Source of the DNA: Enterobacter sp. JUb54 | Lineage (GTDB): Bacteria > Pseudomonadota > Gammaproteobacteria > Enterobacterales > Enterobacteriaceae | Direction of reading: 5' to 3' | NCBI RefSeq assembly: GCF_014298075.1 | Contig: NZ_CP060418.1 | Location: 3,782,001-3,846,000 of the forward strand | Length of the DNA stretch: 64,000 nucleotides | Part shown: positions 4,306 through 30,730 of the stretch, in pieces | Position numbering within the stretch: the stretch's first letter is position 1 | Layout: each line of letters starts with the position of its first letter | Made by a program: the position numbers and the translations under genes | Notes under the pieces: model-generated | The model's database searches: none | The model's input: only the letters and a program-made list of their open reading frames with translations | What the model was told of the DNA's origin: nothing

Positions 4306-4429
4306 AATCCGAAGGATTTCGGATTTAGGGAAGGCGGCAAACTTGCTCATTCCCCGGGAGCTTACTGAAGTAAGTGACCGGGGTGAGGAAGTGCAGCCAA
4401 CACACCCTAAATTCGAAAGACACAGGATT
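4306..4429. repeat. ERIC element in the metE leader
   Basis: This 124-bp element contains the ERIC2 primer core AGTAAGTGACCGGGGTGAG (4369-4387) and the mirror-image CCCCGGGAGCTTACT just before it, so the middle is a near-perfect inverted repeat. The ends are also inverted repeats: AATCC with ATTTAGGG on the left, CCCTAAAT with GGATT on the right. TA dinucleotides flank it (4299-4300, 4430-4431), as usual for ERIC insertion at TA. It lies between the MetJ operator and the metE ribosome-binding site, so it would be transcribed as a long hairpin in the metE 5' leader. Confidence 0.85.
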
Positions 4430-4430
4430 T

Positions 4431-28454: not shown

Positions 28455-29651
28455 ATGTTGAAAATTCTCTTACTGTTCGCGCTGTTGATCGCCGGGATCG
28501 TGGTCGGTCCGATTATTTCCGGGCACCAGGGATACGTGCTGATCCAGACCGATAACTACAATATCGAAACCAGCGTCACCGGGCTGGTCATCATCATGAT
28601 CCTCACGATGGTGGTGTTGTTTGCTATCGAATGGCTGTTCCGCCGTATTTTCCGCACCGGCGCGCATACTCGCGGCTGGTTCGTTGGTCGTAAGCGCCGT
28701 CGCGCACGTAAACAAACCGAGCAGGCGCTGCTCAAACTGGCGGAAGGCGACTATCAGCAGGTTGAGAAGCTGATGGCGAAAAACGCCGATCATGCTGAGC
28801 AGCCGGTGGTGAACTACCTGATGGCGGCGGAAGCGGCGCAGCAGCGTGGCGATGATGCCCGGGCCAATCAGCATCTGGAACGCGCGACTGAGCTGGCCGG
28901 GGACGATCTCATCCCGGTTGAGATCGCTCGCGTGCGTCTGCAACTGGCCCGCAATGAGAATCTTGCGGCGCGCCACGGCATTGATAAATTGCTGGAAATT
29001 ACCCCCAGACATCCGGAAGTTCTACGTCTGGCTGAGCAAGCCTATACCCGCACCGGGGCGTGGAATTCCCTGCTGGATATCATCCCGTCCATGGCGAAAG
29101 CCAACGTCGGCGATGAAGAATACCGCGCTGCGCTGGAGCAGCAGGCCTGGGTTGGCCTGATGGGGCAAACACTGGCCGACCGCGGTAGCGATGGGCTGCG
29201 TGAATGGTGGAAGAGCCAGAATCGCAAAACCCGCAGCCAGGTAACGTTGCAGGTGGCGATGGCGAACCTGCTGATTGAGAGCGACGATCACGATACCGCA
29301 CAGCAGATTATTATCGACGGTCTGAAAAAGCAGTATGACGACCGCCTGGCGATGCTGATTCCGCGCCTGAAGACCAATAATCCTGAGCAGCTGGAAAAAG
29401 TCCTGCGTCAGCAGATCAAAACCGTCGGCGATCGTCCATTGCTGTGGAGCACCCTGGGGCAATCCCTGATGCGTCACGGCGAGTGGCAAGAAGCCAGCAT
29501 TGCGTTCCGTGCCGCGCTGAAACAGCGTCCTGATGCGTTCGATTATGCCTGGCTGGCCGATACGCTGGACCGGATGCATCAACCGGAAGAGGCAGCCTTA
29601 ATGCGCCGTGATGGCCTGCTGTTAACTCTGCAGAACAATCCGCAAGCGTAA
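28455..29651 (+). CDS. hemY: HemY, TPR-containing inner-membrane protein of the hem operon
   Basis: The 398-residue protein has two N-terminal membrane helices (about 3-22 and 40-61), then a basic patch, then tetratricopeptide-type helical repeats to the C-terminus. Despite its name it is not protoporphyrinogen oxidase. It is the last gene of hemCDXY and is conserved there in gammaproteobacteria. A role as scaffold for the haem enzymes is inference. A hairpin follows the stop codon. Confidence 0.94.
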   Translation: MLKILLLFALLIAGIVVGPIISGHQGYVLIQTDNYNIETSVTGLVIIMILTMVVLFAIEWLFRRIFRTGAHTRGWFVGRKRRRARKQTEQALLKLAEGDYQQVEKLMAKNADHAEQPVVNYLMAAEAAQQRGDDARANQHLERATELAGDDLIPVEIARVRLQLARNENLAARHGIDKLLEITPRHPEVLRLAEQAYTRTGAWNSLLDIIPSMAKANVGDEEYRAALEQQAWVGLMGQTLADRGSDGLREWWKSQNRKTRSQVTLQVAMANLLIESDDHDTAQQIIIDGLKKQYDDRLAMLIPRLKTNNPEQLEKVLRQQIKTVGDRPLLWSTLGQSLMRHGEWQEASIAFRAALKQRPDAFDYAWLADTLDRMHQPEEAALMRRDGLLLTLQNNPQA

Positions 29652-29661
29652 CCGCCCTTTT

Positions 29662-29688
29662 GCTATCGCCTCTTCTGGGGGCGATAGC
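29662..29688 (+). terminator. Hairpin after hemY
   Basis: GCTATCGCC (29662-29670) pairs with GGCGATAGC (29680-29688) as a perfect 9-bp stem, 10 bp after the hemY stop. Only a CT-rich tail follows, so termination may be weak or Rho-assisted. Confidence 0.55.
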
Positions 29689-29772
29689 GCTCTCCTCAGC
29701 ACCCGCTTTTACTCTCTCTTCCTTTCTCTTGCTTCATTCTTGCTTTTGCCATCGGCTGCCAACCCCTGAAAT

Positions 29773-30108
29773 AAAAAAACGCCTGCACTGAAATCAGGGC
29801 AGGCGTTAAAACAGGTCTGTTTGACAACAAATTGGGTGCTTCACTCAACGTTATGTCCATGGTGTTTGATGAGGCTATCTGCGTCATCCTTCACGCTGTC
29901 TCTTCGTTGGCGGCGCATGCTCACCCGAGTCACTTACCTTTGCAAGCGCCAGGGGATTCCCATACTGGCCATCTCGACACATCATGAATGATTTAGCATA
30001 TAAAATGCGACATCTGTCAGTGGACGATAAGCACCATTAAACGGCTCTGCATCATTCCTGAGTTTATGAGGCACTAAGGCGAACATAAGAGATGGAATGA
30101 GCATCTAC
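29773..30108 (-). ncRNA. glmZ: Small regulatory RNA GlmZ (enlarged by an internal ERIC element)
   Basis: GlmZ base-pairs with the glmS leader with the help of Hfq and activates glucosamine-6-phosphate synthase; RapZ and RNase E inactivate it. The 5' end GTAGATGCTCATTCCATC and the 3' part (CACCATGGACATAACG, GTTGAGTGAAGCACCCA, TTGTTGTCAAACAGACC) agree with E. coli GlmZ. The intrinsic terminator (stem AACGCCTGC/GCAGGCGTT at 29778-29807, then seven T) is also conserved, and so is the location beside hemY. A -10 box GATAAT is at 30115-30120. The E. coli RNA is about 207 nt; this one would be about 336 nt, because an ERIC-like repeat of about 120 bp sits in its centre. Identification is by recalled sequence. 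Confidence 0.9.
29878..29998 (-). repeat. ERIC element inside glmZ
   Basis: The minus strand reads GTAAGTGACTCGGGTGAGC (29919-29937), a close match to the ERIC2 primer core, with the partner arm GGGAATCCCC (29952-29961 region). The ends are imperfect inverted repeats (GCGTCATCCTTCA at 29881-29893; TGAATGATTTAGC near 29985-29997). TA dinucleotides flank it (29876-29877; about 29999-30001). Its size of about 121 bp matches the ERIC in front of gppA. Confidence 0.8.
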
Positions 30109-30147
30109 CCGGTTATTATCGCACAGGATCGGGGGAAAATGTATCTG

Positions 30148-30180
30148 TCCGGGCAATGAATTGAGACTATTCCGGGCAAT
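30148..30180 (-). promoter_or_regulatory. Direct repeat upstream of the glmZ promoter
   Basis: The 10-mer TCCGGGCAAT occurs twice (30148-30157 and 30171-30180), offset by 23 bp, about two helical turns. Counting from the glmZ start at 30108, the copies are at about -40 to -49 and -63 to -72, and the -35 region itself is poor. That fits an activator-binding site. I find no sigma54 element (GG-N10-GC) at the proper place. Confidence 0.4.
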
Positions 30181-30254
30181 AAGTCGCATCACGATGAGTG
30201 AAATATAAATAGCGATATCATGGGGATAGGTGATTTTTCTGCGAGCGCAGAAAA

Positions 30255-30280
30255 CAAAAAACCCCGCCGAAGCGGGGTTC
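30255..30280 (-). terminator. Terminator of the argX-hisR-leuT-proM operon
   Basis: CCCCGC (30262-30267) and GCGGGG (30272-30277) enclose a stable tetraloop (TTCG on the minus strand), and TTTTTTGTTTT follows on the minus strand. It begins a few bases after tRNA-Pro. Confidence 0.92.
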
Positions 30281-30285
30281 AAAAT

Positions 30286-30362
30286 TGGTCGGCGAGAGAG
30301 GATTCGAACCTCCGACCCACTGGTCCCAAACCAGTTGCGCTACCAAGCTGCGCTACTCGCCG
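30286..30362 (-). tRNA. proM: tRNA-Pro (anticodon TGG)
   Basis: A 77-nt cloverleaf starts CGGCGAGTAGCGCAGC, has anticodon loop TTTGGGA (TGG) and T-loop GGTTCGAATCC, and ends with encoded CCA. It is the last of four tRNAs in the operon. Confidence 0.97.
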
Positions 30363-30405
30363 ATGTACTGCTTTTTTGAATTTTTAGTTCAATTCTTTAA
30401 AGTCG

Positions 30406-30491
30406 TGGTGCGAGGGGGGGGACTCGAACCCCCACATCCTAAGGACACTAACACCTGAAGCTAGCGCGTCTACCAATTCCGCCACCTTCGC
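30406..30491 (-). tRNA. leuT: tRNA-Leu (anticodon CAG)
   Basis: This is an 86-nt class II tRNA with a long variable arm (TGTCCTAAGGATG), start GCGAAGGTGGCGGAATTGG, anticodon loop TTCAGGT (CAG), T-arm with eight consecutive C, and encoded CCA. Confidence 0.97.
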
Positions 30492-30513
30492 AATTCACAA
30501 CTCTATCAAATAA

Positions 30514-30590
30514 TGGGGTGGCTAATGGGATTCGAACCCACGACAACTGGAATCACAATCCAGGGCTCTACCAACTGAGCTATAGCCACC
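30514..30590 (-). tRNA. hisR: tRNA-His (anticodon GTG)
   Basis: A 77-nt tRNA starts GGTGGCTATAGCTCAG, has anticodon loop TTGTGAT (GTG), encoded CCA, and the extra 5' G paired as usual for tRNA-His. The sequence appears the same as E. coli hisR. Confidence 0.98.
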
Positions 30591-30653
30591 ACTACAAATC
30601 TTTTCACGCGGCCCTGTTGAAACAGTCCACCGCAGCTCAAGCACCGGGTTAAA

Positions 30654-30730
<77 letters not shown>

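Follow-up and report, generated by a model that had tools for sequence, protein, structure and literature searches.

The glmZ locus and the anatomy of its insert

We analysed a window of 64,000 nucleotides (C1:3782001-3846000; positions below count from its first letter) of the 5.30-Mb, single-contig genome of Enterobacter sp. JUb54, a bacterium of the Klebsiella group referred to here as G000. The window carries glmZ, the gene of the much-studied small RNA GlmZ, as a stretch of 336 nt on the minus strand (29773..30108). This gene matches the whole Rfam model RF00083 (model positions 1-214 of 214, E 8.9e-51, 194.7 bits against a gathering cut-off of 60), and both its identity and its exact limits are as the first-pass annotation of this DNA had given them. 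In the RF00083 alignment, the GAUG and CAUC arms of the central stem-loop (SLII) are separated by 129 nt where the model has 4 positions. The sole other match to this model in the G000 genome is GlmY-sized (186 nt).

The gene hemY (28455..29651, plus strand), an ORF named by synteny with E. coli K-12, is convergent with glmZ and lies on the same side of it as in K-12. Upstream of glmZ we identified a tRNA cluster (30289..30730, minus strand; four RF00005 matches) and a -10-like hexamer, GATAAT (30115..30120, minus strand), inside a block, GTGCGATAAT, that is kept in 20/20 genomes of the genus. The terminator stem-loop (SLIII) and its U run occupy 29773..29808 (minus strand), as placed by the RF00083 match, by folding and by the letters themselves, and the glmS-pairing 3' part of GlmZ is conserved in the alignment with genus relatives. 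A consensus scan of 29600-30300, which picked up neither the glmZ promoter nor the glmZ terminator, returned no sigma-70-type promoter and one terminator, at 30259-30280 between the tRNAs and glmZ.

The centre of the gene is occupied by an ERIC element, as had been proposed from the letters alone. With both TA target copies the insert spans 29876..30002 (minus strand; GlmZ nt 107-233, 127 nt), as delimited by alignment with 10 insert-free genomes, by the ERIC boundaries and by other copies; the element itself lies at 29878-30000, between TA copies at 30001..30002 (5' side, nt 107-108) and 29876..29877 (3' side, nt 232-233). For the earlier estimate of about 120 bp the exact figure is 125-127, and the ERIC length given in PMC3049150 is likewise 127 bp. 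We found 25 ERIC matches at E<=0.001 in the G000 genome, the glmZ copy and 24 others, and a profile could be built from the copies. The ends of the insert resemble the full-length form TA-TACCC...GGGTA-TA that is common to 54 copies in three genomes. The inverted end pair TATATGC/GCAGATA has one mismatch in G000 and none in the other five carriers described below, and the hairpin folds better than shuffled sequences (z -3.2 in G000, z -8.3 in K. michiganensis). The insert therefore shares its length, TA copies, inverted ends and central core with the ERIC MITEs of Enterobacteriaceae, but differs from them in lying inside an sRNA gene and, in G000, in the partial decay of its pairing. The core pattern GTAAGTGACTNGGGTGAG, with at most 2 mismatches, occurs twice in the window against 0 occurrences in 100 shuffles. 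The second occurrence, GTAAGTGACCGGGGTGAG at 4370, has one mismatch (region 4330-4430).

The insert falls within SLII. The lower arms GUCCA (nt 84-88; 30021..30025) and UGGAC (nt 250-254; 29855..29859) are identical in E. coli and in 20/20 genus genomes, and further up the minus-strand transcript come the upper arms GAUG (nt 95-98; 30011..30014) and CAUC (nt 238-241; 29868..29871), placed by comparison with E. coli and the genus and from the letters, and the two GC sides of the tip hairpin (nt 101-102, 30007..30008, and nt 234-235, 29874..29875), placed by folding, comparison and letters. When the flanks GTCGCATTTTA and GCCTCATC are joined at one TA, they read UC, GC, loop AUUUUA, GC, CU, a standard SLII tip; that of E. 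coli is UC-GC-UUAU-GC-CU. This empty site was computed from the K. oxytoca locus, whose insert-adjacent flanks are identical in G000, and has a hairpin-loop score of 1.0. Since a normal tip remains once the ERIC is removed, we place the element in the SLII terminal loop, and the position at the apex of the central stem, proposed earlier by analogy with E. coli, holds. An SLII apex of 12-21 nt with a small self-complementary tip was found in each of the 10 insert-free genomes and in E. coli. The JUb54 gene thus resembles E. coli glmZ in its whole-model match, SLII arms, terminator and place beside hemY, but its apex measures 139 nt through the full ERIC, against 12 nt there.

A cryo-EM structure exists for the E. 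coli GlmZ-RapZ/RNase E complex, in which, as described in PMC9841335, the two proteins grip SLI and SLII and make contact with the latter at A125, at A127 and at its lateral bulge. RNase E cleavage is placed by PMC9841335 and PMC6602413 in the single strand after SLII in E. coli. In E. coli numbering the insert site corresponds to loop nt 102-105, toward the opposite end of the stem from the contacts named, and we infer that the SLII tip would be free in the complex.

Distribution and mosaic history of the insert

We investigated the distribution of the insert in 20 genomes of the genus. A GlmZ of 335-336 nt with the full ERIC is present in 6/20, namely G000, K. oxytoca (G009), K. michiganensis (G007), K. 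spallanzanii (G017), G005 and G010. Four further genomes, R. ornithinolytica (G008), R. planticola (G011), Raoultella sp. BIGb0138 (G015) and G003, have a GlmZ of 259-260 nt with a 52-nt hairpin whose ends are ERIC-like, and the other ten have a GlmZ of 208-218 nt with neither insert, among them K. pneumoniae (G012), K. grimontii (G004), R. terrigena (G018), K. indica (G006) and 'Enterobacter sp. 10-1' (G014). Lengths of glmZ were concordant in 11 named records, with the ERIC present in those of K. oxytoca, K. michiganensis and K. spallanzanii. GlmY showed no such insert (186-193 nt in 20/20 genus genomes). In a family-level search of 295 genomes, 187 of them with a match, lengths outside the genus were at most 234 nt among the matches listed, and an order-level search gave a match in 7/59 genomes, none long except that of G000.

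In the four Raoultella-type genomes (loci L013-L016), a near palindrome of 52 nt occupies the same SLII loop. Aligned to the ERIC in opposite orientation, it was matched by 0/1000 shuffles in 11/12 comparisons and by 2/1000 in one, and in the same orientation similarity was weak or none (3 to 553 of 1000 shuffles); an ERIC origin is indicated here by one alignment test, whose shuffles destroy palindromes. The insert is single-copy in its four genomes, and the G000 genome holds a mere 15-nt match (E 0.995). It may be either an ERIC that has lost its middle by internal deletion and become symmetrical, or the product of a second ERIC insertion at the same loop.

The G000 locus has different affinities along its length. 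By hemY, part of thrP and rpoB, G000 groups with the Raoultella-type genomes, and nt 236-336 of its GlmZ are identical to R. ornithinolytica at 101/101 positions, against 97/101 for K. oxytoca. The upstream spacer (-220..-41), in contrast, is closer to K. spallanzanii (156/180) than to R. ornithinolytica (136/180), and a spacer tree places G000 beside K. oxytoca-like genomes (support 88/81); the -40..-1 stretch fails to separate the two parents (34/40 vs 35/40 for G015). Over 28455-30300 the region reads as a mosaic, with a K. oxytoca-like promoter spacer and ERIC, and a Raoultella-like glmZ 3' part and hemY.

The sister genomes G005, with the ERIC, and G016, without it, agree at 176/180 spacer positions and are identical over nt 1-98 (97/97), and the ERIC is absent in K. 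grimontii and present in its relatives K. oxytoca and K. michiganensis. This patchy and mosaic occurrence is consistent with exchange of the SLII tip by recombination through the conserved arms. Ancestral presence of the ERIC followed by repeated loss would fit less simply.

ERICs within other RNAs of the genus

Of the 74 other ERIC matches in three genomes, we compared 73 with Rfam (G000 24/24, G009 20/20, G007 29/30), and identified an ERIC inside an RNA match at 3/73 loci: tp2, a cobalamin riboswitch and MicL. GlmZ is thus not the sole RNA of the genus to contain an ERIC and, with an ERIC-bearing GlmZ in 6/20 genomes, the description of the JUb54 locus as an unusual case finds no support.

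In tp2 (RF02030; K. oxytoca, L118 1441-1674) the ERIC lies in a hairpin loop. The flanking ORFs we take to be pdhR-like and aceE-like, with tp2 presumably in the aceE leader. Across the 20 genus genomes (L172-L191) tp2 measures 112 nt in 3, 130-133 nt in 5, 185 nt in G000 and 233-240 nt in 11, the long forms being putative ERIC carriers and the K. indica tp2 being divergent. By eye, the 130-133 nt forms resemble deletion remnants of the insert ends.

The cobalamin riboswitch of K. michiganensis (L138 1419-1709) contains an ERIC, as do those of K. spallanzanii and G016 (L192-L194), whereas K. oxytoca, G010 and K. grimontii (L197-L199) have the site empty; the ORF that follows is presumably cobyrinate-synthase-like. 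The Rfam alignment had suggested a terminal-loop position for this ERIC, which we rejected, as the genome alignment puts the junction in an internal stretch (CCCATA...). Longer inserts with ERIC-like ends were observed in the cobalamin riboswitch of G006 and G014. Finally, the MicL match of K. michiganensis (L151 1409-1843) has an ERIC inside it, preceded by the stop of an ORF that we take to be cutC-like.

A general preference of ERICs for hairpin loops was considered and rejected. From 76 loci in three genomes, 54 of them full-length, 45 remained after 9 orthologues were dropped, including the window's own glmZ copy, which is represented by that of K. oxytoca. The junction fell in a loop (score >= 0.5) at 15/45 insertions against 116/357 control TA sites (p 0.52), and a rank test of insertion against control TA sites gave p 0.27. 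Because ERICs show no general hairpin-loop preference, their position inside tp2, the cobalamin riboswitch and MicL is probably an outcome of survival and not of targeting.

Folding, divergence and the fate of the insert

We folded the whole GlmZ RNA of both carriers and insert-free relatives. In five full-ERIC alleles (G005, G007, G009, G010 and G017, hereafter the five) the lower-stem pairs of SLII have probabilities of 0.86-0.95 and the GAUG/CAUC pairs of 0.98-1.0; the two of the ten insert-free genomes that were folded, K. pneumoniae and K. grimontii, gave 0.85-0.95 and 0.99-1.0. For the G000 allele, canonical SLII has a probability of 0.07-0.08 and the minimum-energy fold differs from it. 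The short-hairpin alleles (n=4) range from 0.03 to 0.75 in the lower stem and from 0.04 to 1.0 in GAUG/CAUC, and in R. ornithinolytica and R. planticola the lowest-energy fold lacks canonical SLII. The penalty for imposing that structure is 1.4 kcal/mol for G000, 0.4 for G008 and 2.3 for G011, differences that we take as within the error of such folding models. The possibility of a long hairpin extension that spares the outer stem thus agrees with the predicted folds of the five, the G000 allele being the weakest evidence for an unbroken outer stem.

Divergence among the five is unevenly distributed, with means of 2.6% in the ERIC, 1.2% in the 5' part of GlmZ, 0.0% in its 3' part, 21% in the upstream spacer and 9.1% in hemY; the ERIC values range over 1.6-3.2%, against 11-28% for the spacer. 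Each deviation of these ERICs from the consensus is limited to one species, and the G000 ERIC departs from it at 12/125 sites. The lower divergence of the ERIC than of spacer and hemY could reflect constraint instead of recent spread. This pattern is an argument for a domesticated module, in which the ERIC hairpin would alter handling by RapZ and RNase E (through protection, extra cleavage or altered affinity) and be kept for that effect. In the same direction, just one of the 11 orthologous ERIC pairs shared by K. oxytoca and K. michiganensis is less diverged than the pair in glmZ (3/128), and a precedent comes from Yersinia, where, according to the review PMC10969869, ERICs at gene 3' ends can unmask an RNase E site. 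Both cases, as that review presents the Yersinia one, would concern a transcribed ERIC in an RNA handled by RNase E, but the Yersinia elements lie at mRNA ends and the present one in the binding stem of an sRNA.

We consider domestication unlikely, however, on several grounds. Slow evolution of the glmZ ERIC is not supported by the comparison of 3/128 with 44/832 in the ten other pairs (p 0.19), nor by that within nine of the 11 pairs, glmZ included and L116/L143 (0/122) and L127/L156 (5/51) left aside, where 3/128 compares with 39/659 (p 0.13), and the L116/L143 pair has no difference at all. Compensatory pair changes relative to the K. michiganensis fold number 0 in G000, 0 in K. oxytoca and 0 in K. 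spallanzanii. Taken as a whole, the G000 RNA has lost 6 pairs of that fold, 4 of which belong to the ERIC, and keeps 4 others by one-sided change; the broken ERIC pair 158-182 is likewise unpaired in K. oxytoca and K. spallanzanii. The stability of the G000 ERIC (-43.9 kcal/mol) equals that of a random-substitution null (-44.1, sd 5.6; 1019/2000 at least as stable), and in each of the five the ERIC falls short of the mean stability of its own null. The close relatives K. grimontii and G016, moreover, do without the element. Selection on the ERIC hairpin thus receives no support, and the suggestion that the repeat had been domesticated is left without positive evidence, the hairpin decaying as under random mutation. 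Without structural selection, the low ERIC divergence would be best explained by recent spread, with sequence constraint as a possible contributor.

A second alternative, which we regard as distinctly improbable, is that the ERIC disrupted GlmZ and left its carriers with a pseudogene in slow decay. The low SLII probability and the broken pairs of G000 would be expected of such a gene. Outside the ERIC, however, the five differ among themselves at 0-2 positions per about 200 nt, and G000 differs from them at 6-7 and from the ten insert-free genomes at 6-12; the -10 block and the terminator are kept, and the canonical fold of G000 lies at most 1.4 kcal/mol from its optimum. An alignment or assembly artefact, or a lineage-specific loop that merely resembles an ERIC, can be set aside, as the same insert occurs in six assemblies, two of them single-contig, with TA copies and ERIC ends, and is refuted by the 336-nt, ERIC-bearing glmZ in the K. 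oxytoca, K. michiganensis and K. spallanzanii records.

We therefore favour, with reasonable confidence, the reading that a self-folding ERIC MITE is tolerated as an extension of the SLII tip of a working GlmZ, and that the allele has spread by recombination. The anatomy shows insertion at the TA within the terminal loop AUUUUA, with duplication of TA. Being self-folding and placed at the outermost end of the stem, the ERIC would have left the terminator, the stretch that pairs with glmS and both arms of SLII undisturbed. GlmZ is conserved outside the insert and the RNA is therefore probably functional, so that the 336-nt form would remain a working GlmZ. The mosaic alleles suggest that homologous recombination, acting through the conserved arms of glmZ, carried the allele from one Klebsiella-group species to another. 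The ERIC would itself probably be a passenger, tolerated while its pairing slowly decays.

A comparable case is the pneumococcal trp leader, where, as reported in PMC3049150, a BOX element between two T-box riboswitches is co-transcribed with them, the regulatory RNA seemingly still being able to work. The likeness, on that account, would be of a small repeat co-transcribed with a structured regulatory RNA, but the BOX lies between riboswitches and not in the loop of one, and belongs to another repeat family and another phylum. The literature surveyed on GlmZ and on ERICs, as far as it was covered, holds no description of an ERIC insertion in GlmZ, and an earlier mention is possible.

Thus, a regulatory RNA can grow by more than half through a mobile repeat while the rest of its sequence remains visibly as conserved as before. 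A broader and tentative reading, which we hold to be possible and no better than doubtful as a whole, is that ERICs of the Klebsiella group become inserted in structured regulatory RNAs time and again, as at the SLII tip of GlmZ, in the tp2 hairpin of the aceE leader, in a peripheral internal loop of a cobalamin riboswitch and in MicL, and are retained as interchangeable hairpin extensions, passed between species by recombination and shortened by deletion. MITEs would then continually supply new RNA stems, and the GlmZ extension may tune RapZ-dependent decay. The three forms that occur naturally at one loop, without insert, with the short hairpin and with the 127-bp ERIC, offer a ready-made test of what portion of SLII is read by the machinery. 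The SLII tip also varies among the 10 insert-free genomes, its pairing being kept by differing letters (GC/GC, GCA/UGC, GCAU/AUGC, GCG/CGC and GCCA/UGGU).
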